From Arenicola marina (lineage: Eukaryota; Annelida; Polychaeta; Arenicolidae): 64,000 nt of DNA. Under the pieces are notes generated by a model that worked only from the letters and a program-made list of their open reading frames with translations, did no database searches and was not told the origin of the DNA. Position numbers and translations under genes: made by a program. Each line of letters starts with the position of its first letter. Position 1 is the first letter of the stretch. Shown here in pieces: positions 31,196 through 63,839 of the stretch. The DNA is taken from contig OZ025248.1 in the NCBI GenBank assembly GCA_964019135.1, positions 68,144,119 through 68,208,118 on the forward strand, read 5' to 3'.

Positions 31196-34100
31196 TAATG
31201 GGGACTTGTGTTAGCGAGGGGCACAGGATGGGTCCCAGCTTGGTGAGCATGGCGCAGTCCTGCCACTCCGCGCCGCCATCGGCGTTTACGCGCAGGTCAA
31301 CCTGCAAGCAGACGACAGGGAGAGTGATGACGTCACAGGCAGTATCAGAAAGCACTCAGCCAGCAAATGTCACGGCAACACAGCTCTGGTACCAAGGCAT
31401 AAGGCACAACATATAGATCATGCGAAAAAGCCTGGTATAATCCAACGATATTTCCAATGATAACTTGCTGAAACGTGTCCAGGCTCAAACTGGCAACAAG
31501 TTGCACAGGCATACCGTCAAGAAGCCTATACATCATTGGCCGTTTACCCTTTTATATCGCCAAGAACCATGTGTACACGCTATGAAATGTAATGTCACTT
31601 CACCAATAATAATATTATTTAACCGTGATATGAATGCCATGGTTACGTCCGCTCAGACTCACCTGTAACTTCTCCCAGACTTTTTTCTTGGGTTTAAGTT
31701 CCTCTTCTGCCTGGCCGTCTTTATGTCCGTCAAAGAACACTCTGTCTCCCGGGGCGCTACCCTCAGGTGCCGCTAGAGGGCACACCGCGCTGGGGTCCTC
31801 CCTGACATCAAATGAACATGAAGCACGGTGAGTGATTCTCTAACTACATGTATAATGAGTCTATCTGCCATGTGATCGCATGTCTAATGCTGAAACCCTC
31901 TTGTGACTTGAACGGTTAAGTTTACTAGAAGACGCCACCCCCGGATTACCCACCTAGAGATACACATGAGCATGGCTCTCGACCCCACCCCCTGATTACC
32001 CACCTAGAGGCACACATGAGCATGGCTCTCGACTCCACCCCCTGATTACCCACCTAGAGACACACATGAGCATGGCTCTCGACCCCACCCCCTGATTACC
32101 CACCTAGAGGCACACATGAGCATGGCTCTCGACTCCACCCCCTGATTACCCACCTCGAGGCACACATGAGCATGGCTCTCGACTCCACCCCCTGATTACC
32201 CACCTAGAGGCACACATGAGCAAGGCTACAGACTCCACCCCCTGATTACCCACCTAGAGACACACATGAGCATGGCTCTCGACCCCACCCCCTGATTACC
32301 CACCTAGAGGCACACATGAGCATGGCTCTCGACTCCACCCCCTGATTACCCACCTCGAGGCACACATGAGCAAGGCTACAGACTCCACCCCCTGGCTACC
32401 CACCTAGAGGCACACATGAGCATGGCTCTCGACCCCACCCCCTGATTACCCACCTCGAGGCACACCTGAGCATGGCTCTCGACTCCACCCCCTGATTACC
32501 CACCTAGAGGCACACATGAGCATGGCTCTCGACTCCACCCCCTGATTACCCACCTAGAGGCACACATGAGCATGGCTCTCGACCCCACCCCCTGATTACC
32601 CACCTCGAGGCACACATGAGCATGGCTCTCGACTCCACCCACTGATTACCCACCTAGAGGCACACATGAGCAAGGCTACAGACTCCACCCCCTGGCTACC
32701 CACCTAGAGGCACACATGAGCATGGCTCTCGACTCCACCCCCTGATTACCCACCTCGAGGCACACATGAGCATGGCTCTCGACTCCACCCCCTGATTACC
32801 CACCTAGAGGCACACATGAGCATGGCTCTCGGCCCACCCCCTGATTACCCACCTCGAGGCACACATGAGCATGGCTCTCGACTCTACCCCTTGATTACCC
32901 ACCTAGAGGCACACATGAGCAAGGCTACAGACTCCACCCCCTCGCTACCCACCTAGAGGCACACATGAGCATAGCTCTCGACCCCACCCCCTGATTACCC
33001 ATCTCGAGGCACACATGAGCATGGCTCTCGACTCCACCGCCTGATTACCCACCTAGAGGCACACATGAGCATGGCTCTCGACTCCACCCCCTGATTACCC
33101 ACCTCGAGGCACACATGAGCATGGCTCTCGACTCCACCCCTTGATTACCCACCTAGAGGCACACATGAGCATAGCTCTCGACCCCACCCCCTGATTACCC
33201 ACCTCGAGGCATACATGAGCATGACTCTCGACTCCACCGCCTGATTACCCACCTAGAGACACACATGAGCATGGCTCTCGACCCCACCCCTGATTACCCA
33301 CCTCGAGACACACATGAGCATGGCTCTCGACTCCACCCCTTGATTACCCACCTAGAGGCACACATGAGCATGGCTCTCGACTCCACCCCCTGGCTACCCA
33401 CCTAGAGGCACACATGAGCATGGCTCTCGACTCCACCCCCTGATTACCCACCTAGAGGCACACATGAGCATGGCTCTCGACTCCACCCCCTGGCTACCCA
33501 CCTAGAGGCACACATGAGCATGGCTCTCGACCCAACCCCCTGATTACCCACCTTGAGGCACACATGAGCATGCCTCTCGACCCCACCCCTGATTACCCAC
33601 CTCGAGGCACACATGAGCATGGCTCTCGACTCCACTCCCTGGCTACCCATCTAGAGGCACACATGAGCATGCCTCTCGACCCCACCCCCTGATTACCCAC
33701 CTCGAGGCACACATGAGCATGGCTCTCGACTCCACCCCTTGATTACTCACCTAGAGGCACACATGAGCATGGCTCTCGACTCCACCCCCTGATTACCCAC
33801 CTAGAGGCACACAGGAGCATGGCTCTCGACTCCACCCCCTGATTACCCACCTAGAGGCACACATGAGCATGGCTCTCGACTCCACCCCCTGATTACCCAC
33901 CTAGAGGCACACATGAGCATGCCTCTCGACCCCACCCCCTGATTACCCACCTAGAGGCACACATGAGCATGGCTCTCGACTCCACCCCCTGATTACCCAC
34001 CTAGAGGCACACATGAGCATGGCTCTAGACTCCACCCCCTGGCTACCCACCTAGAGGCACACATGAGCATGCCTCTCGACCCCACCCCCTGATTACCCAC

Positions 34101-37100
34101 CTCGAGGCACACATGAGCATGGCTCTCGACTCCACCCCCTGATTACCCACGTAGAGGCACACATGAGCATGGCTCTCGACTCCACCCCCTGGCTACCCAC
34201 CTAGAGGCACACATGAGCATGCCTCTCGACCCCACCCCCTGATTACCCACCTCGAGGCACACATGAGCATGGCTCTCGACTCCACCCCTTGATTACTCAC
34301 CTAGAGGCACACATGAGCATGGCTCTCGACTCCACCCCCTGATTACCCACCTAGAGGCACACAGGAGCATGGCTCTCGACTCCACCCCCTGATTACCCAC
34401 CTAGAGGCACACATGAGCATGGCTCTCGACTCCACCCCCTGATTACCCACCTAGAGGCACACATGAGCATGGCTCTCGACTCCACCCCCTGATTACCCAC
34501 CTAGAGGCACACATGAGCATGGCTCTCGACCCCACCCCTGATTACCCACCTAGAGGCACACATGAGCATGGCTCTCGACTCCACCCCCTGGCTACCCACC
34601 TAGAGGCACACATGAGCATGCCTCTCGACCCCACCCCCTGATTACCCACCTCGAGGCACACATGAGCATGGCTCTCGACTCCACCCCTTGATTACTCACC
34701 TAGAGGCACACATGAGCATGGCTCTCGACTCCATCCCCTGATTACCCACCTAGAGGCACACAGGAGCATGGCTCTCGACTCCACCCCCTGATTACTCACC
34801 TAGAGGCACACATGAGCATGGCTCTCGACTCCACCCCCTGATTACCCACCTAGAGGCACACATGAGCATGGCTCTCGACTCCACCTCCTGATTACCCACC
34901 TAGAGGCACACATGAGCATGGCTCTTGACTCCACCCCCCTCATTTTGACGGGCTTGAGGTTGCACATGAAGACGCCGATCCGGTCCTTGAGCTCTTCCAT
35001 GGGAACCAGACGGGCCAGTCCGCTCACCACCGTCCTTGGCTCGGCCTCGCCAAGGTCAACTGTCTCCACGTACAGACTGTCCGCGTCCGGGTGCTGCGGC
35101 GACAAACAGACAGACAGTTACACGATCCAGGTAACGCAACACCTCCTCCCGTCTGTTAGACAAAAAATATCACGTGCTTATTCTTCAGTTTATGCTGGTT
35201 ATTCGCTGACCACAGGCTCTGGGCATCAGAAATGTACCCATATGATCATCGTGTATTATTTAATTCACCAGGATCGTGTACATGCTTTACCTTGTCGACA
35301 GCGAGAATCTTTCCAATTCGAAAGTCCAGTCTGCTGGGAACCAACTCGTCAGTGGCGCCATCTGCCGCCGCCGCCGCCGCCGCCGCTCCACCCTTAGCAC
35401 CCTCTAGCGTCCAAACACAATGACGGACATTTTCCAACGTTGCGCATCACGTTATCATTTAATAATCTAACTTTATGTAACTGTATACTTTGTGTAGGAG
35501 GCGAATATCATCTACCGTATTTCTTCTACTCGCATAAAAATACAGCACAAGTTTCTTATCGGGCATATCGTGCGGCATTAATCCGTAAGTGCGCGGACCG
35601 ACGCTGGCTCACAGACACCTACTTTTACTGGGCGGTGGGTAGGCTTGGTTGGTGAGCTTTCGAAGCTCTGGCGTGGAAAACTCTTTTCTGATTGGCTCCA
35701 GCAGGTCGTTGAGGTAGCGTTCTACGGAGGCCTTCAGATCGGCCGGATGCAGCTCCTGGGATGGAGTTGGTGGAAGGGGGGGGGGGGGGAATTAGCCTAT
35801 GCGTTCATCTGAATAGTTGACTGCTTCAGTTTCGTAGTATTTTCAGTCTCGAAAAGAGACAGCACATAGAATATATGTTTGTACTCTATATAGCTTTCTA
35901 AGTACACGTGTTGTTGCTACTTGGTTGGAATCTGTGTAAGACAATTGCAGCTTATTTTGTTGTATTTTTGGGTATTTTTCCATTGATTCGGCGAAATTTG
36001 CCACTATGCCTGAACAAACTACGAGCAATAATAATAATGAGCAGTAACGCATCCTTAAAAGTAAGATGGTGCCTCACCTCTCGGGCAAAAATGCCTTCCA
36101 ATTCTGCAAAGTCTGTAATGTTTAGTGTGCCGCCATTTTCGGGTTTCCTTTCTACCACAAATGCTGTAACGAAATGAAGTAGATCAACACATCAGAAGTG
36201 CTCGCCGACAAAACAAAAAACTTCAAACATAAAAAAAAAAAAGACAAAATGTAATAGTCTAACGCATAGGCGCATCGCCCACTTAAGGAACAACGTTGGT
36301 AGTAGTGGACTACATTAGAATATCATTAGTTTTCACTTCTTAAATATCAACTTTGGCCAGTAAAGACAACGTAGTGAAAAGCAAGATGGATTGTCCAAAA
36401 CCATGTTGAAAGTTTTATAATCGAGCTCAGCTGGACTCTGGTCTCATTAATGATTTTAAGGTAGTCACCAAAATGGCCCGAGAAGATATGTCTCGATAGG
36501 TCTAGCTTTACCCCAGTTACCCTGTTCCCGGTTCCTGGCTCTGTTGACAGGAAATATTGGTGTTTTAGGCCAGCTTTGTGCAGACAAGGGCTAAACTGGA
36601 CCAAGGAACGATGGACGGATGAAACACGCCCAGGACCTATTCAGCTGCGGTCCACTTTAACCACTACACGAGGGGGCGCCACTGGGCCTACCTTGGCCTT
36701 GCCGGAGCGGGAAGAGCACGTGTTTGACGAAGGACAGGACGCCGTTGTCGGTGACGTTGCCGGGCTCGCAGAACGCTCGCTTCAGCTTCTTCTTCACGTC
36801 CTGTGCGCTGTCCAGCAAGTCGATCTTAGAGTCCTCCTCGGAGGAACTCATCTTGGCCCCAGTCAGACCTGGCACTGGTTAACCCAGGGGTGAACACTTA
36901 GTGTTAATTACACCGTCATATAATGGTAGAAGACGTCCCAGAGACGCAGCATCACCATGGTGACAGAGGCAGCATCACCATGGTGACAGAGGCAGCATCA
37001 CCATGATGGCAGAGGCAGCATCACCATGGTGACAGAGACAGCATCACCATGGTGACAGACAGGCAGAATCACCATGGTGACAGATGGCAACGGTACGCAT

Positions 37101-53267: not shown

Positions 53268-56200
53268 ATGGGGATGATGGAGTGGCTGAAGACCTACTTC
53301 GTGCTGGGGCAGCTGCTGTTCGGCTTCGTCTTTGTGGTGAGCGGCCTGGTGGTGTGCTTCCTCATGCTGCTCACCTGGATCCTAGTCTGGCCCTTCAACA
53401 AGACCCTCTACAGGAAGATCTGCTGCAACCTGGCGTACACCCACTGGTGCCGTGAGTGCCCCTTGCTCGTCTCGCCTCCGTGTCGCTCCAGATCACATCA
53501 TGGCGGTGTGTCCCATCTTGTATGTAATCCATATCTCATCTCATGGCAGTGTGTCCCATCTTGTATGTAATCCATATCTCATCTCATGGCAGTGTGTCCC
53601 ATCTTGTATGTAATCCATATCTCATCTCATGGCAGTGTGTCCCATCTTGTATGTAATCCATATCTCATCTCATGGCAGTGTGTCCCATCTTGTATGTAAT
53701 CCATATCTCATCTCATGGCAGTGTGTCCCATCTTGTATGTAATCCATATCTCATCTCATGGCAATGTGTCCCATCTTGTATGTAATCCATATCTCATCTC
53801 ATGGCAATGTGTCCCATCTTGTATGTAATCCATATCTCATCTCATGGCAGTGTGTCCCATCTTGTATGTAATCCATATCTCATCTCATGGCAATGTGTCC
53901 CATCTTGTATGTAATCCATATCTCATCTCATGGCAATGTGTCCCATCTTGTATGTAATCCATATCTCATCTCATGGCAGTGTGTCCCATCTTGTATGTAA
54001 TCCATATCTCATCTCATGGCAATGTGTCCCATCTTGTATGTAATCCATATCTCATCTCATGGCAATGTGTCCCATCTTGTATGTAATCCGTATCTCCTGT
54101 CAGTGTGTCCCATCTTGTATGTAACCAATAACTTATATGTATTCCCCGGGGTGTCCACTATATCCTGGGTACTTTAATATATCCTTTATCTAAGTTATGT
54201 GTTTCAAGTGTGTCTCATTGTATGTTCCCAATGTGTCCCATATCTCCTTTGTATTCTCAGTGTCCCATGTCTCCTCTGTATTCCCAGCACGTCCAATATC
54301 GTCCATGTATTAACAGTCCAATATCTCCTGTGTGTTCCCTGTAGTTGTTTCCAGTGTGCCACATCTCTCGTGTGTTTTGAATGTGTCCCATATCTCCTGT
54401 GCATTGGTGTCCCATATCTTCCATGTTTTCATAGTGCCCCATATTTCCTGTATATTCCCCACAATCCCCATATCTCCTGTGTATACCCGGTGTGCCCCAC
54501 ATCTCATGTCAGTTCCATTTGTTTCCCATATGTGTGTTCCCTCTATGTATCTCCTTGTAATCTCAGTATTTTCCATATCTCCCGTGTATTCTCAGTGTTT
54601 TCCATATCTCCCGTGTATTCGTTGTGTCCCGTATCTCCTGTACATTCCAGTGTCCCATATCTTCTTGTATTATATGTACCTTCATGGCACATATTGTTTA
54701 TATCTATTGTGGCGGGTATCTGACGAGTATTCCATTATACTTCTACAAGTGTCCCATTGCGTTATATATACGTGTAATGTAAGTGTTTATCCATTGTGTG
54801 GGCACCTTGCGCGGCAAGTATTGACTTAGATGATAAGGCCCCGCGGGTCACCAAGGCCGACTGTCTGGTGTGTGGGATAGGAGCCAGTGGATGTGTGGGA
54901 CTGACGTGTGGGGGATGAGCCAGTGGATGTGTGGGGCTGACGTGTGGGGGATGAGCCAGTGGATGTGTGGGGCTGACGTGTGGGAAAGGAGCCAGTGGAT
55001 GTGTGGGGCTGACGTGTGGGGGATGAGCCAGTGGATGTGTGGGGCTGACGTGTGGGGGAAGAGCCAGTGGATGTGTGGGGCTGACGTGTGGGAGAGGAAC
55101 CAGTGGATGTGTGGGAATGACGTGTGGGGGGTGAGCCAGTGGATGTGTGGGGCTGACGTCTGGGAGAGGAGCCAGTGGATGTGTGGGGCTGACGTGTGGG
55201 AAAGGAGCCAGTGGATGTGTGGGGCTGACGTGTGGGGGATGAGCCAGTGGATGTGTGGGGCTGACGTGTGGGGGATGAGCCAGTGGATGTGTGGGGCTGA
55301 CGTGTGGGGGATGAGCCAGTGGGTGTGTGGGGCTGACGTGTGGGAGAGGAGCCAGTGGATGTGTGGGACTGACGTGTGGGGGATGAGCCAGTGGATGTGT
55401 TGGGCTGACGTGTGGGAGAGGAGCCAGTAGATGTGTGGGGCTGCCGTGTGGGGGATGAGCCAGTGGATGTGTGGGGCTGACGTCTGGGAGAGGAGCCAGT
55501 GGATGTGTGGGGCTGACGTGTGGAAGAGGAGCCAGTGGATGTGTGGGAATGACGTGTGGTGGGTGAGCCAGTGGATGTGTGGGGCTGACGTGTGGGAGAG
55601 GAGCCAGTGGATGTGTGGGGCTGACGTGTGGGGGAGGAGCCAGTGGATGTGTGGGGCTGACGTGTGGGAGAGGAGCCAGGGGATGTGTGGGGCTGACGTG
55701 TGGGAGAGGAGCCAGTGAATGTGTGGGGCTGACGTGTGGGAGAGGAGCCAGTGGGTGTGTGGGGCTGACGTGTGGGAGAGGAACCAGTGGATGTGTGAGG
55801 CTGACGTGTGGGAGAGTAGCCAGTGGATGTGTGGGGCTGACGTGTGGGAGAGGAGCCAGGGGATGTGTGGGGCTGACGTGTGGGAGAGGAGCCAGTGAAT
55901 GTGTGGGGCTGACGTGTGGGAGAGGAGCCAGTGGGTGTGTGGGGCTGACGTGTGGGGGAGGAACCAGTGGATGTGTGAGGCTGACGTGTGGGGGATGAGC
56001 CAGTGGATGTGTGGGGCTGACGTGTGGGGGATGAGCCAGTGGATGTGTGGGGCTGACGTCTGGGAGAGGAACCAGTGGATTTTGTGGGAGAGGAGCCAGT
56101 GGATGTGTGGGACGGACGTGTGGGGGATGAGCCAGTGGATGTGTGGGGCTGACGTGTGGTAGAGGAACCAGTGGATTTTGTGGGAGAAGAGCTAGGGGAT

Positions 56201-59200
56201 GTGTGCGGCTGACGTGTGGGAGAGGAACCAGTGGATGTGTGGGGCTGACGTGTGGGAGGTAAGCCAGTGGATGTGTGGGGCTGACGTGTGGGAGAGGAAC
56301 CAGTGGATTTTGTGGGAGAGGAGCCAGGGGATGTGTGCGGCTGACGTGTGGGAGAGGAACCAGTGGATGTGTGGGGCTGACGTATGGGGGGTAAGCCAGT
56401 GGATGTGTGGAACTGACGTGTGGGGGAGGAGCCAGGGGATGTGTGGGGCTGACATGTGGGAGAGGAGCCAGTGAATGTGTGGGGCTGACGTGTGGGAGTG
56501 GAGCCAGTGGATGTGTGGGGCTGACGTGTGGGGGGTAAGCCAGTGGATGTGTGGGGCTGACGTGTGGGGGAGGAGCCAGTGGATGTGTGGGGCTGACGTG
56601 TGGGAGAGGAGCCAGTGGATGTGTGGGGCTGACGTGTGGGAGAGGAACCAGTGGATGTGTGGGGCTGACGTATGGGGGAGGAGCCAGTGGATGTGTGGGG
56701 CTGACGTGTGGGAGAGGAACCAGTGGATGTGTGGGGCTGACGTATGGGGGGTAAGCCAGTGGATGTGTGGGACTGACGTGTGGGGGAGGAGCCAGTGGAT
56801 GTGTGGGACTGACGTGTGGGAGAGGAAGCAGTGGATGTGTGGGGCTGACGTGTGGGGGAGGAGCCAGTGGATGTGTGGGACTGACGTGTGGGGGAGGAGC
56901 CAGTGGATGTGTGGGGCTGACGTGTGGGAGAGGAGGCAGGGGATGTGTGGGGCTGACGTGTGCGAGAGGAACCAGTGGATGTGTGGGGCTGACGTGTGGG
57001 AGAGGAACCAGTGGATGTGTGGAGCCGACGTGTGGGGGAAGAGCCAGTGGATGTGTGGGGCTGACGTGTGCGAGAGGAGGCAGGGGATGTGTGGGGCTGA
57101 CGTGTGCTAGAGGAACCAGTGGATGTGTGGAGCCGACGTGTGGGATAGGAGCCAGTGGATGTGTGGGGCTGACGTGTGGGAGAGGAGCCAGTGGGTATGT
57201 GGGGCTGACGTGTGGGGGATGAGCCAGTGGGTGTGTGGGGCTGACGTGTGGGGGATGAGCCAGTGGATGTGTGGGGCTGACGTGTGGGAGAGGAGCCCCT
57301 GGATGTGTGGGGCTGGTGTGTGGGAGAGGAGCCAGTGGATGTGTGGAGCTGACGTGTGGGGGATGAGCCAGTGGATGTGTGGGGCTGACGTCGGGGAGAG
57401 GAGCCAGTGGATGTGTGGGGCTGACGTGTGGGAGAAGAGCCAGTGGATGTGTGGGGCTGTCGTGTGGGGGATGAGCCAGTGGATGTGTGGGGCTGACGTC
57501 TGGGAGAGGAACCAGTGGATTTTGTGGGAGAGGAGCCAGTGGATGTGTGGGGCTGACGTTTGGGGGGTAAGCCAGTGGATGTGTGGGGCTGACGTGTGGG
57601 AGAGGAACCAGTGGATTTTGTGGGAGAGGAGCCAGGGGATGTGTGGGGCTGACGTGTGGGAGAGGAACCAGTGGATGTGTGGGGCTGACGTGTGGGGGGT
57701 AAGCCAGTGGATGTGTGGGGCTGACGTGTGGGAGAGGAACCAGTGGATGTGTGGGGCTGACGTATGGGAGAGGAGGCAGGGGATGTGTGGGGCTGACGTG
57801 TGCGAGAGGAACCAGTGGATGTGTGGGGCTGACGTGTGGGAGAGGAACCAGTGGATGTGTGGAGCCGACGTGTGGGGGAAGAGCCGGTGGATGTGTGGGG
57901 CTGACGTGTGCGAGAGGAGGCAGGGGATGTGTGGGGCTGACGTGTGCTAGAGGAACCAGTGGATGTGTGGAGCCGACGTGTGGGATAGGAGCCAGTGGAT
58001 GTGTGGGGCTGACGTGTGGGAGAGGAGCCAGTGGGTATGTGGGGCTGACGTGTGGGGGATGAGCCAGTGGGTGTGTGGGGCTGACGTGTGGGGGATGAGC
58101 CAGTGGATGTGTGGGGCTGTCGTGTGGGAGAGGAGCCCCTGGATGTGTGGGGCTGGTGTGTGGGAGAGGAGCCAGTGGATGTGTGGAGCTGACGTGTGGG
58201 GGATGAGCCAGTGGATGTGTGGGGCTGACGTCGGGGAGAGGAGCCAGTGGATGTGTGGGGCTGACGTGTGGGAGAAGAGCCAGTGGATGTGTGGGGCTGT
58301 CGTGTGGGGGATGAGCCAGTGGATGTGTGGGGCTGACGTGTGGGAGAGGAGCCAGTGGATGTGTGGGGCTGACGTGTGGGAGAAGAGCCAGTGGATGTGT
58401 GGGGCTGTCGTGTGGGGGATGAGCCAGTGGATGTGTGGGGCTGACGTGTGGGAGAGGAGCCAGTGGATGTGTGGGGCTGACGTTTGGGAGAGGAGCCAGT
58501 GGATGTGTGGGGCTGACGTGTGGGGGAGGAGCCAGTGGATGTGTGGGGCTGACGTGTGGGAGAAGAGCCAGTGGATGTGTGGGGCTGACGTTTGGGAGAG
58601 GAGCCAGTGGATGTGTGGGGCTGACGTGTGGGGGATGAGCCAGTGGATGTGTGGGGCTGACGTATGGGAGAGGAGCCAGTGGATGTGTGGGGCTGACGTG
58701 TGGGAGAGGAGCCAGTGGATGTGTGGGGCTGACGTTTGGGAGAGGAGCCAGTGGATGTGTGTGGCTGACGTGTGGGAGAGGAGCCAGTGGATGTGTGGGA
58801 CTGACAAGTGGGAGAGGAACCAGTGGATGTGTGGAGCTGACGTGTGGGGGATGAGCCAGTGGATGTGTGGGGCTGACGTGTGGGAGAGGAGCCAGTGGAT
58901 GTGTGGGGCTGACGTGTGGGAGAGGAGCCAGTGGATGTGTGGGGCTGACGTTTGGGAGAGGAGCCAGTGGATGTGTGGGGCTGACGTGTGGGAGAGGAGC
59001 CAGTGGATGTGTGGGACTGACATGTGGGAGAGGAACCAGTGGATGTGTGGAGCTGACGTGTGGGGGATGAGCCAGTTGATGTGTGGGGCTGACGTGTGGT
59101 AGAGGAACCAGTGGATGTGTGGGAGAGGAGCTAGTGGATGTGTGGAGCTGACGTGTGGGGGATGAGCCAGTGGATGTGTGGGGCTGACGTGTGGTAGAGG

Positions 59201-62200
59201 AACCAGTGGATGTGTGGAGCTGACGTGTGGGGGATGAGCCAGTGGATGTGTGGGGCTGACGTGTGGTAGAGGAACCAGTGGATGTGTGGGAGAGGAACCA
59301 GTGGATGTGTGGAGCTGACGTGTGGGGGATGAGCCAGTGGATGTGTGGGGCTGACGTGTGGGAGAGGAGCCAGTGGCTGTGTGGGAGAGGAGCTAGTGGA
59401 TGTGTGGGGCTGACGTGTGGGGGATGAGCCAGTGGATGTGCGGGGCTGACGTGTGGTAGAGGAACCAGTGGATGTGTGGGAGAGGAGCTAGTGGATGTGT
59501 GGGGCTGACGTGTGGGGGATGAGCCAGTGGATGTGTGGGGCTGACGTGTGGTAGAAGAACCAGTGGATGTGTGGGAGAGGAGCTAGTGGATGTGTGGGGC
59601 TGACGTGTGGGAAAGGAGCCAGTGGATGTGTGGGACTGACGTGTTGGGGATGAGCCAGTGGATGTGTGGGGCTGACGTGTGGGGGATGAGCCAGTGGATG
59701 TGTGGGGCTGACGTGTGAGGGATGAGCCAGTGGATGTGTGGGGCTGACGTGTGGGAGAGGAGCCAGTGGATGTGTGGGGCTGACGTGTGGGAGAGGAGCC
59801 AGTGGATGTGTGGGGCTGACGTGTGCGGGATGAGCCAGTGGATGTGTGGGGCTGACGTGTGGGAGAGGAGCCAGTGGATGTGTGGGGCTGACGTGTGGGA
59901 GAGGAGCCAGTGGATGTGTGGGGCTGACGTGTGGGGGATGAGCCAGTGGATGTGTGGGGCTGACGTGTGAGGGATGAGCCAGTGGATGTGTGGGGCTGAC
60001 GTGTGGGAGAGGAGCCAGTGGATGTGTGGGGCTGACGTGTGGGAGAGGAGCCAGTGGATGTGTGGGGCTGACGTGTGGGAGAGGAGCCAGTGGATGTGTG
60101 GGGCTGACGTGTGCGGGATGAACCAGTGGATGTGTGGAGCTGACGTGTGGGAGAGGAGCCAGTGGATGTGTGGGGCTGGTCTGGACTGACGGGGGTACGT
60201 CTCTGGCTCCAGAGCTCACCTTCCTGGCGCAGTGGTGGTCCGGCTCGGACTGCACGCTGGCCATGGAAAAACCCGAGGACTTCGAAAAGATAGGCAAGGA
60301 GCACTGCATCGTCCTTATGAACCACAAGTATGACATCGACTGGCTCATGGCCTGGATCCTCGCCGAGAGGTTCGCCATGCTAGGGGTAGGTTACTGTGTT
60401 CACCCAATATGCTACTTCCCCTATGTGTACCGTATTTTACCCGATATGCTACTTTCTCTGGGGGAGGTGTACCTGTATTTCACCCAATATGCTACTTCTT
60501 CTGGGGTGGGTGTACCTGTATTTCACCCAATATGCTACTTCTTCTGGGGTGGGTGTACCGTATTTTACCCCATATGCTACTTTCTCTGGGGTGGGTGTAC
60601 CGTATTTTACCCAATATGCTACTTTCTCTGGGGTGGGTGTACCGAATGTCACGGAATATGCTACTTTCTCTATGGTGAGTGTACATGTATTTCAACCGAT
60701 ATGCAACTTTCGCTGGGGTAGGTGTACCGTATTCACCCAATATGCTACTGTCTCTGGGGTATGTGTACCGTATTTTACCCAATAAGTGACTTTTCTTAGG
60801 GCTAGGTGTACCGTATTTTATCCAATAAGAGACCTTGAGTTTTTTATTGGGGTGATGATATGATTGTGTACAGATGTGTGTATGTGGCGAGACTGTTCTG
60901 TCGGCACAGGGTACTAAGATCTACGGCAAGTCGAGTCTGAAGATGGTGCCCCTGATTGGCTGGGCCTGGACCTTCACCGAGAGCATCTTCCTCAAGCGGG
61001 AGTGGGAGAAGGACCGCGAGATCATATCACGTGACCTGCGCTACGTCACGGACTACCCGGACAACTATTGGATCACGGTCAGTGAGGGGAGGGTTCATAC
61101 TTACTGGTGAATAACATTCATACTGCGGGCTTGTGTTGGGAGTGGGCTGGTCCATCTTCAATGTAAGAACCCACGAAAGGTATTATTGTAGTAAACATTA
61201 GGCGTGAGTAATACGTGAGCTATACTAAAACAATGATTCGGCCTTACATGGGAGAACGACCAGTGGATCAGTTTGGTTTTGGTTAAAACAGGGGTTTCGA
61301 ATCAGTGTCGGTGTTGTGCTATCATAAGTGGATACTGCCGGATCGGTAGTCCGTGTTTACCCTTAAAATGACCTTCAATTCGGTAGAATCCTATAACCAC
61401 GCTTCTTACGTGTACACTTGAATTTGCATTTTGAAATAAGCAGCGCTATGTGGCAATTGAAGTCGCTCCTGATTATACCAAGTTTCTTGTTGTGGGTCGC
61501 CCAAGGAATGTCGCCTGGGGAATGTCGCCTGGCCCCATTGGCCCTGCACCAGGTCTGTTGGGTCACGGACCATACAGATGTCACGCTTGTCGCTTCCAGC
61601 TGCTGTTGTTTTGCGAGGGGACGCGCTTCACGGAGAGCAAACACAAGCTGAGTAACGAGGTGGCGCGCAAGAAGGGTCTCCCCGAGCTCAAACACCATCT
61701 GCTGCCCAGGACCAAGGGCTTCGTCCACTCCATGAACGGACTCAAGGGCAAAGGTCGGATAACGTGCGCGAGACCAAACCTTTGCTGGTTCATATGGAAA
61801 TGTGTGGCATAGTAATATGTCCAGTATATATATATGTATAAGTACACATCACATAATAGCTTAAAATGGGAAATATTTGAAACGTGATTGACTTGTTTTA
61901 AATTTACCCTGATGTCCGGCTCCATTCTCTTCATAAGGTAAAATAAAGTGCCAAGATATAGGTTTTCATTGTCGTCCGACCTCAGTGACCTCGCTGACCT
62001 GAATAACCCCATTATATTCCGTTGCCTTGGATTTAGATCGACCTCACGGTGTTAATTTGAATCACGGAATTAATAGTGTGCCATCCTCCCCCCTCCCCCC
62101 CCCCTCCCCTCCTCCCCCCCTGCAGTGCCCACCATCCTGGACCTGACCGTGGGGTTCCGCCCTGGCACCGTGAGACCCACGCTGATGAGCGTCCTCCAGG

Positions 62201-62803
62201 GCAAGGCCTTCCACGCCGAGATGTATGTCAGGTAAGAGAACCCGTGGAGCCCCCGGTCTGTAACCATGGCGACACACGCACAGATGGACGCCATGTTGTG
62301 TCTGGTCACACTGGTCAGTCAGGTGTAGGTCACGTGTTTGTGATGTATGGAGTGATTTGATTGGTTTGATTGGGGGGATGTGTGGAGTGATTTGATTGGT
62401 TTGATTGGGGGGATGTATGGAGTGAGGACGGTTGGTGAGGAAACTGTAAACAAGAGAGAAGTCTGCCCGTGTGGAATGTACGTCTTGCGGCTTAGTTAAG
62501 TTAGCGGCATGGCTTCTCTGAACTCAAGACACATATACCGCATACATCAGACTGCAGTTCAAGCAATAACGCAGTGATATATCTTTCACTCTAGTGTTTT
62601 AATACCTGTAGGGTCTGCGTGTTCTATTGTGCGTCACCTTTATTGGCCGGCACTTGTGTCGGGTGCAGCTAATAGGCAAAGCGCTTGAGCACTCATCTGG
62701 AGTCTTGACCTCTGCGTTTTACAGACGGATTCCGATCGACTCTGTGCCGACAAATACAGATGAAGAATGCGCCGCTTGGCTTCACGGAGTATATCAGGAA
62801 AAG
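53268..62803 (+). CDS. AGPAT3/4-type 1-acylglycerol-3-phosphate O-acyltransferase, first six exons; 3' end off the right edge
   Basis: Exons: 53268-53451, 60213-60385, 60910-61077, 61600-61753, 62126-62231, 62725-62803 (first donor). The joined frame is about 288 residues; human AGPAT3 is about 376, so the C-terminal transmembrane part lies to the right. The enzyme adds an acyl chain to lysophosphatidic acid to make phosphatidic acid, at the ER or Golgi membrane. A hydrophobic N-terminal segment (FVLGQLLFGFVFVVSGLVV) anchors it. The catalytic NHX4D block is NHKYDID (residues 98-104), EGTR is at 181-184 in FCEGTRFTESKH, and VPLIGWAW and LLPRTKGF match AGPAT3/4. Exon 6 ends AAWLHGVYQEK, as in AGPAT3. 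The start has a good context (CACCATGGGG). AGPAT3, AGPAT4 and a common ancestor of both cannot be told apart here. The introns hold four large arrays. Confidence 0.94.
53495..54110. repeat. 43-bp minisatellite in AGPAT intron 1, about 14 copies
   Basis: Near-identical units of CATGGCAGTGTGTCCCATCT plus TGTATGTAATCCATATCTCA and TCT, starting about 45 bases after the exon 1 donor. The only common change is CAGTG/CAATG. Confidence 0.93.
54111..54720. repeat. Degenerate region related to the 43-bp array
   Basis: Irregular repeats of TGTCCCATATCTCCTGTGTA TTC type, about 20-35 bp, gradually losing similarity to the 43-bp array on the left. It looks like an older, decayed extension of it. Confidence 0.65.
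54865..60180. repeat. 36-bp minisatellite of about 145 copies filling AGPAT intron 1
   Basis: Units of GAGCCAGTGGATGTGTGG plus GGCTGACGTGTGGGAGAG or GGGGAT, running for 5.3 kb to within about 30 bases of the exon 2 acceptor. Shortened units (GGATTTTGTGGGAGAGGAGC) recur. A block near 57100-57460 is copied at 57940-58300. Because 36 is a multiple of three, long open frames such as SQWMCGADVWER repeats appear on both strands. They have no splice or start support and are not genes. Confidence 0.96.
60378..60830 (+). repeat. 42-bp array, about 10 copies, starting at the AGPAT exon 2 donor
   Basis: Units of CTCTGGGGTGGGTGTACC plus GTATTTTACCCAATATGCTA CTTT. The first unit begins in the last codons of exon 2 (CTAGGG|GTAGGTTACTG), so later copies carry donor-like GGG|GTRGGT. 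This is a probable border-derived (mirage) array with a short exon part of about 6 bases. Confidence 0.8.
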
Positions 62804-63820
62804 GTAAAGGCCGCGTGGCTTCACGGAGTATATCGGGAAAAGGTAAAGGCCGCGTGGCTTCACGGAGTATATCAGGAAAAGGTAAAGGCCGCGTGGCTTC
62901 ATGGAGTATATCAGAAAAAGGTAAAGGCCGCGTGGCTTCACGGAGTATATCAGGAAAATGTAAAGGCCGCGTGGCTTCACACAGTATATCAGGAAAAGGT
63001 AAAGGCCGCGTGGCTTCACACAGTATATCAGGAAAAGGTAAAGGCCGCGTGGCGTCACGGAGTATGTCAGGAAAAGGTAACGGCCGCGTGGCTTCACGGA
63101 GTATATCAGGAAAAGGTAAAGGCCGCGTGGCTTCACGGAGTATATCAGGAAAAGGTAAAGGCCGCGTGGCTTCACGGAGTATATCAGGAACAGGTAAAGG
63201 CCGCGTGGCTTCACGGATTATATCAGGAAAAGTTAAAGGCCGCGAGGCTTCACGGATTATATCTGAAAGATAAAGGCCGCGTGGCTTCACGGAGTATATC
63301 AGGAACAGGTAAAGGCCGCGTGGCTTCACGGATTATATCAGGAAAAGGTAAAGGCCGCGTGGCTTCACGGATTATATCAGAAAGGTAAAGGCCGCGTGGC
63401 TTCACGGACTATATCAGGAAAAGGTAAAGGCCGCGTGGCTTCACGGAGTATATCAGGAACAGGTAAAGGCCGCGTGGCTTCACAGATTATATCAGGAAAA
63501 GATAAAGGCCGCGTGGCTTCACGGATTATATCAGAAAAGGTAAAGGCCGCGTGGTTTCATGGATTGTATCAGGAAAAGGTAAAGGCCGCGTGGCTTCACG
63601 GAGTATATCAGGAACAGGTAAAGGCCGCGTGGCTTCGCGGATTATATCAGGAAAAGGTAAAGGCCGCGTGGCTTCACGGAGTATATCAGGAACAGGTAAA
63701 GGCCGCGTGGCTTCACGGATTATATCAGGAAAATGTAAAGGTCGCGTGGTTTCATGGATTATATCAGGAAAAGGAAAAGGCCGCGTGGCTTCACGGATTA
63801 TATCAGAAAAGGTAAACGGC
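62765..63820 (+). repeat. 39-bp in-frame 'mirage' minisatellite made from the AGPAT exon 6 border, about 27 copies
   Basis: Each unit is GCCGCGTGGCTTCACGGA, then GTATATCAGGAAAAG, then GTAAAG. The first 33 bases repeat the last 33 coding bases of exon 6 (AAWLHGVYQEK), and the last six are the intron start, so each copy has the donor GAAAAG|GTAAAG. The 39-bp length keeps frame: the exon frame stays open for about 11 further units before a deletion near 63268 shifts it. Variants include GGATTATATC and GGAACAG. Confidence 0.96.
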
Positions 63821-63839
63821 CCCTCGCTTTACAAAATAT

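Follow-up and report, generated by a model that had tools for sequence, protein, structure and literature searches.

Does a ladder of splice donors at the end of an exon lengthen the encoded enzyme step by step, or is it a by-product of a repeat-rich genome? The question is raised by an AGPAT3/4-like gene of Arenicola marina, in which the border between exon 6 and the following intron is copied in tandem. The window, the whole stretch of 64,000 nucleotides that was analysed, comprises positions 68144119-68208118 of contig C1 (OZ025248.1), which is 77 Mb long in an 867-Mb assembly. Eight coding exons were modelled on the plus strand, six inside the window and two in the flanking locus L001. The first seven are as follows.

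53268..53451, plus strand: AGPAT exon 1, starting at ATG, with donor GTGAGT, placed by reading frame and AGPAT protein homology
60213..60385, plus strand: AGPAT exon 2, ending in GGG before the donor GTAGGT, and adjoined by a 42-43 bp array (60383-60827)
60910..61077, plus strand: AGPAT exon 3
61600..61753, plus strand: AGPAT exon 4
62126..62231, plus strand: AGPAT exon 5
62725..62803, plus strand: AGPAT exon 6, of which the final 33 nt are array copy 1, and which closes at a codon end
From window coordinate 64450, beyond the window and seen in L001: AGPAT exon 7, beginning GAC GCC ATT..., in phase 0, first residue Asp

The spliced frame runs for 400 residues without a stop (coding sequence, 1203 nt). 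Membership of the AGPAT family was judged by the acyltransferase domain PF01553 together with the C-terminal domain PF16076, and the protein matched both above the Pfam cut-off (E 4.7e-14 and E 1.7e-12, respectively). Its designation as AGPAT3/4-like is suggested by the names of database matches, such as 'gamma' and 'delta'. The best named matches, among the best 120 of 325, were those of Capitella (73%), Dimorphilus (69%), Helobdella (69%) and a chiton (67%) over the queried part. Exon 4 encodes the EGTR motif. A genome search with the AGPAT protein, in which 12 candidates were scored, returned a single matching locus. Intron 1 is mostly filled by a 36/108-bp array of ~5.3 kb (54870-60178).

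The intron between exons 6 and 7 is 1646 bp long and opens with the array in question, of which two features matter for the reading frame.

62771..63821, plus strand: 39-bp border-copying minisatellite (TRF: period 39, 27.1 copies, 92% matches)
62804..63193, plus strand: in-frame, stop-free intron stretch to donor 11, in which copies 2-11 retain GT and would add 13 residues each

Copy 1 consists of exon bases 62771-62803 (33 nt) and the intron bases gtaaag (62804-62809), so that the border reads AAG followed by gtaaag. The exon-6 copy differs from the array consensus at one base, and this difference is silent. An array of 27 such copies is no chance match. TRF and reading of the copies thus bore out the unit, frame and donors described in the original prediction (33 exon and 6 intron bases, 39 bp, ~27 copies), with the start moved to 62771 from 62765, which was 6 bases too early. 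The array interrupts the C-terminal PF16076 and not the catalytic PF01553.

Each 39-bp step preserves the frame because exon 6 ends at a codon end and exon 7 is in phase 0. The GT donor is intact in 23 of the 27 copies and lost in four. When the 23 were joined to exon 7, 11 gave a frame that is maintained and open (donors 1-11), 11 were frameshifted and one was stopped. Donor 12 has become TT and copy 13 carries a 2-bp deletion; length changes were found in copies 13, 16, 20 and 27. The run of in-frame donors, put at up to about 12 in the original prediction, therefore ends at 11, with a ceiling of 10 extra modules (donors 2-11). Scored with a human donor matrix, ten of donors 1-11 scored 3.3-3.7 bits and donor 5, with AAT before GT, about 0. 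By the same human donor frequencies, 20 of the 22 GT donors beyond donor 1 were near-equal in score and two were weak.

This arrangement invites a reading in which donors 1-11 are true alternatives, yielding AGPAT proteins lengthened by 0-10 additional VKAAWLHGVYQEK modules, a number that may differ among individuals with the length of their arrays. In its favour are the phase 0 on both sides, the 11 open in-frame donors, ten of them alike in strength, and the report that border repeats in human genes cause alternative splicing, in the available passages of that study (PMC2812944). The modules also still match PF16076, as copied sequence would in any case: the score rose from 71.7 bits without a module to 75.7 bits with one and 82.4 bits with three, the extra match being a second stretch, and since the copied sequence would match anyway, this rise is not evidence of function.

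The conservation of the protein argues against such isoforms. The homologue set comprised 176 different proteins, drawn from the best 120 of 325 and the best 120 of 671 matches. The 173 homologues that span the exon 6/7 junction were all free of insertions and deletions across the 20 columns surrounding it, and 172 of them had Lys followed by Asp at the junction itself. In a structural model of the Capitella homologue (mean pLDDT 86.9), the junction falls at residues 289/290, within a helix that spans 275-299; the two long helices that follow are read as putative membrane helices, and a search of solved structures gave no match to the Capitella homologue. The module VKAAWLHGVYQEK was found in none of the 176 homologues fetched. 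When database proteins were scored on the module region, none of 711 candidates reached E <= 0.001; this search returned no ordinary AGPATs either, so that it tests for multi-module proteins only. The absence of the module from databases says little, because Arenicola's own AGPAT protein was itself absent among the best 120 of 671 matches.

The copies gave no sign of coding constraint either. Copies 2-12 carry 12 distinct changes, of which 11 are replacements and one is silent, when ~23% silent would be expected without selection; so few silent changes have a P of 0.16, the changes being few and the test weak. Together with the homologues, with sister arrays that are mostly out of frame (below) and with reports, in the passages available, that amphioxus mirages leave regular splicing undisturbed (PMC3087553, PMC3902484), these results leave the proposed protein length series unsupported, and we consider functional isoforms of this kind very improbable.

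The same copies may record how the array grew. Residue 284 is Val in the exon and in copies 2-11. Of the 16 copies numbered 12-27, 12 encode Leu there, if the CTA of copy 17 is included, and the other four encode Val; in the homologue alignment, 102 of 121 rows show Leu, the query being one of the rows. Copies that stand further along the array are more distant from the exon copy (rho 0.44, p 0.021, with the degenerate 28th copy included). The pattern at residue 284 and the rising distance fit growth from the exon end, by which the nearest copies would be the youngest. A similar rise was found in a myosin array at locus L035 (rho 0.66, p 0.0004), and an array behind a synthetase exon had no such order trend (rho 0.14, p 0.28).

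Retention of GT in 23 of 27 copies could also be taken to mean that the donor copies are under selection because the array regulates or buffers splicing, for instance as a platform for U1 binding that helps to define the exon. The loss of GT in the other four weighs against this. A hand recount over the 23 well-registered 39-base copies gave 3 changes at the GT sites (1.5 per site) vs 37 over 39 sites (0.95 per site), so that GT is no better kept than other sites. Moreover, six of the seven AGPAT donors lack such copies, near-copies being found at exon 6 alone. We consider a regulatory role very improbable. The array adjoining exon 2 (60383-60827) was not accepted as another AGPAT border array. 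By TRF it starts 3 nt within the exon, but its units resemble the donor only weakly, and a search that allowed 3 mismatches gave 0 near-copies of the donor 20-mer.

An inflated copy number or a misplaced array was considered as well, tandem arrays being difficult to assemble. The copies are, however, mutually different, and the array lies within a 77-Mb contig, in a gene with an open frame, which makes an assembly artefact highly improbable.

Border-copying arrays occur at other exons of this genome, one of them in the window.

34900..35093, minus strand: tyrosyl-tRNA synthetase-like exon, C-terminal domain (PDB match 1ntg_A, E 2.5e-28)
31931..34938, minus strand: 50-bp border-copying array, 60 copies (TRF), which copies the synthetase exon end and donor

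The donor 20-mer of the synthetase exon has 59 near-copies. Of the 42 intact donors in this array, the first alone is open, 23 being frameshifted and 18 stopped, which makes the array look like a long string of decoys behind one real donor. The array is followed by an open frame that resembles the next synthetase exon, judging from its likeness to the human protein.

Further arrays came from 20 myosin loci, the best 20 of 77 matches, some of which lie in the same gene. Donor-copying arrays were counted at two of these 20. At L035 (1623-3174) a 62-bp unit is present in at least 25 copies up to the end of the locus, and of 24 intact donors the first alone is open. At L042, on the minus strand and from the match end, a 37-bp unit is present in ~8 copies with 8 intact donors, two of them open; one of the 7 later donors is in frame and open (+69). 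An automatic donor test had flagged three of the 20 loci, L035 at the donor itself, and the other two at a GT past the match end, by 30 bases in L031 and 26 in L042; L042 was counted from sequence reading and a motif count, and L031 was left out as its array begins past the donor. L030 (17 bp x 88) was likewise left out, its array beginning at a donor without copying it. On the reverse strand of L043 (1-640), repeated 77-bp units consist of AG, a 45-nt exon-like stretch and GT; they lie upstream of, and away from, the myosin match and did not enter the count. Among the four border arrays counted, only that of AGPAT has a unit divisible by three (39 bp; not 50, 62 or 37 bp).

How often an array would meet an exon border by chance was estimated from 20 stretches, each of 10 kb and evenly spaced along contig C1 (L008-L027), searched by TRF for periods of 10 or more. 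Minisatellites cover 31.6% of these stretches (2-91% per stretch), and a share of ~32% seems unusually high. The 110 merged arrays correspond to 1.06 array edges per kb, which, if edges are uniform, predicts 0.6-1.3 edges per 1203 nt of AGPAT coding sequence, depending on the score threshold. Main periods were divisible by three in 34 of the 110 arrays; higher score thresholds left 71 and 56 arrays, of which 18 and 14, respectively, had such periods. By this edge density and these period counts, it is unremarkable in this genome for one border to carry an in-frame array.

Two other features of the assembly were observed. On contigs C443, C465, C504, C330, C652, C390 and C536, frames for kinases or kinesins contain TAA/TAG codons; these contigs are possibly ciliate contamination, in which such codons would be read as an amino acid. 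At C5:5402476-5437356, five kinase matches share one E-value and are spaced ~8.5 kb apart, in what looks like a recent tandem duplication.

Collectively, these results suggest that the exon-6 ladder is a side effect of the genome's wealth of repeats and not a device for longer enzymes. Most probably, the AGPAT array is an intronic minisatellite of the kind called 'mirage', in which the first donor is mainly used, the protein is the normal one without a module and the frame is kept by chance. A tandem duplication would have straddled the exon 6 donor by chance, and the copies would have multiplied through slippage or unequal exchange, the genome being dense in arrays. The spliceosome would mostly take the first donor and so produce the normal AGPAT protein with no extra module. 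The frame would be preserved through an accident, 39 happening to be divisible by three (a chance of roughly one in three or four), and through the youth of the nearest copies, with the modules themselves unselected. That the first donor is used is the simplest inference, because the later intact donors counted in the synthetase and L035 arrays would all ruin the protein. Some results sit less well with the mirage reading. Ten donors among 1-11 score nearly equally, so that the donor itself does not favour the first; L042 has a later donor that is in frame and open; and the order trend is missing in the synthetase array.

Near-equal donors also allow for splicing noise, in which the first donor dominates and a measurable minority of transcripts comes from donors 2-11, giving longer, functionless proteins at low level, with donors 14 onward giving frameshifted or stopped transcripts. 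The 22 further GT donors, 20 near-equal and two weak, speak for such noise, and cryptic use of mirage sites has been raised as a possibility for the amphioxus globins, in the part of that paper available (PMC3087553). Against it stands the absence of the module from all 176 homologues and from the module search, which says little when the animal's own AGPAT is absent too. We regard measurable noise as rather unlikely; it overlaps with the mirage reading, with which low-level use of later donors is compatible. A bolder proposal is that donors 1-11 are measurably used and add 0-10 extra 13-residue helical modules, with a limit that shifts with individual array length, and that such ladders exist genome-wide, opened or closed by unit length. 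This we think improbable.

The AGPAT array is probably a further case of the mirage kind known from amphioxus. As far as the available text of the sources goes, amphioxus mirages are minisatellite-like copies of exon-intron borders that carry splice signals, in Adh3, BflGb6, BflGb9, troponin C and PGBD5 (PMC3087553, PMC3902484). The AGPAT array resembles them in both respects, its tandem copies lying across an exon-intron border and many of them carrying splice signals. Lengths that are unstable between haplotypes or somatic cells are a further mark of mirages, and the assembly represents the AGPAT array by one matching locus. For the globin mirages, RT-PCR is reported to show regular splicing (PMC3087553, PMC3902484). 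The original prediction was right that border arrays are known from amphioxus. The border repeats of PGBD5, of 60 and 108 bp, are, like the 39-bp AGPAT unit, multiples of three (PMC3902484). One PGBD5 gene model includes the copies as an additional 57-residue exon, which the authors omitted, according to the passages available (PMC3902484). On account of these units and this gene model, an in-frame border repeat has a precedent. The annelid arrays differ in size: the amphioxus globin and PGBD5 mirages have 2-7 copies in the descriptions available, whereas those counted here have 27, 60, at least 25 and, at L042, about 8.

In human segmentally duplicated genes, border tandem repeats alter splicing, and 66% of such intron changes have transcripts that retain the repeat, in the portion of the study available (PMC2812944). 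A real ladder is therefore not impossible. The human repeats described there are supported by transcripts and lie in recent paralogues, in contrast to the AGPAT gene, for which the genome search matched a single locus. Earthworm metallothionein genes are likewise from annelids: they have intronic minisatellites, and fourth-exon duplications in another clone are missing from the transcript, according to the text available (PMC12783039). Annelid introns rich in minisatellites, with duplicated exon sequence there kept outside the mRNA, are a shared trait, although the metallothionein repeats are not described, in that text, as copies of one exon-intron border (PMC12783039).

If the mirage reading is right, the arrays of this genome provide a natural test of how splicing settles on the first donor when many almost identical ones follow it; the synthetase exon alone has 42 intact donors. 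Border arrays at several exons of this annelid, beside those described in amphioxus and in human duplicated genes, suggest that such structures emerge wherever minisatellites are dense, and they are material for ideas on intron gain and new exon ends.
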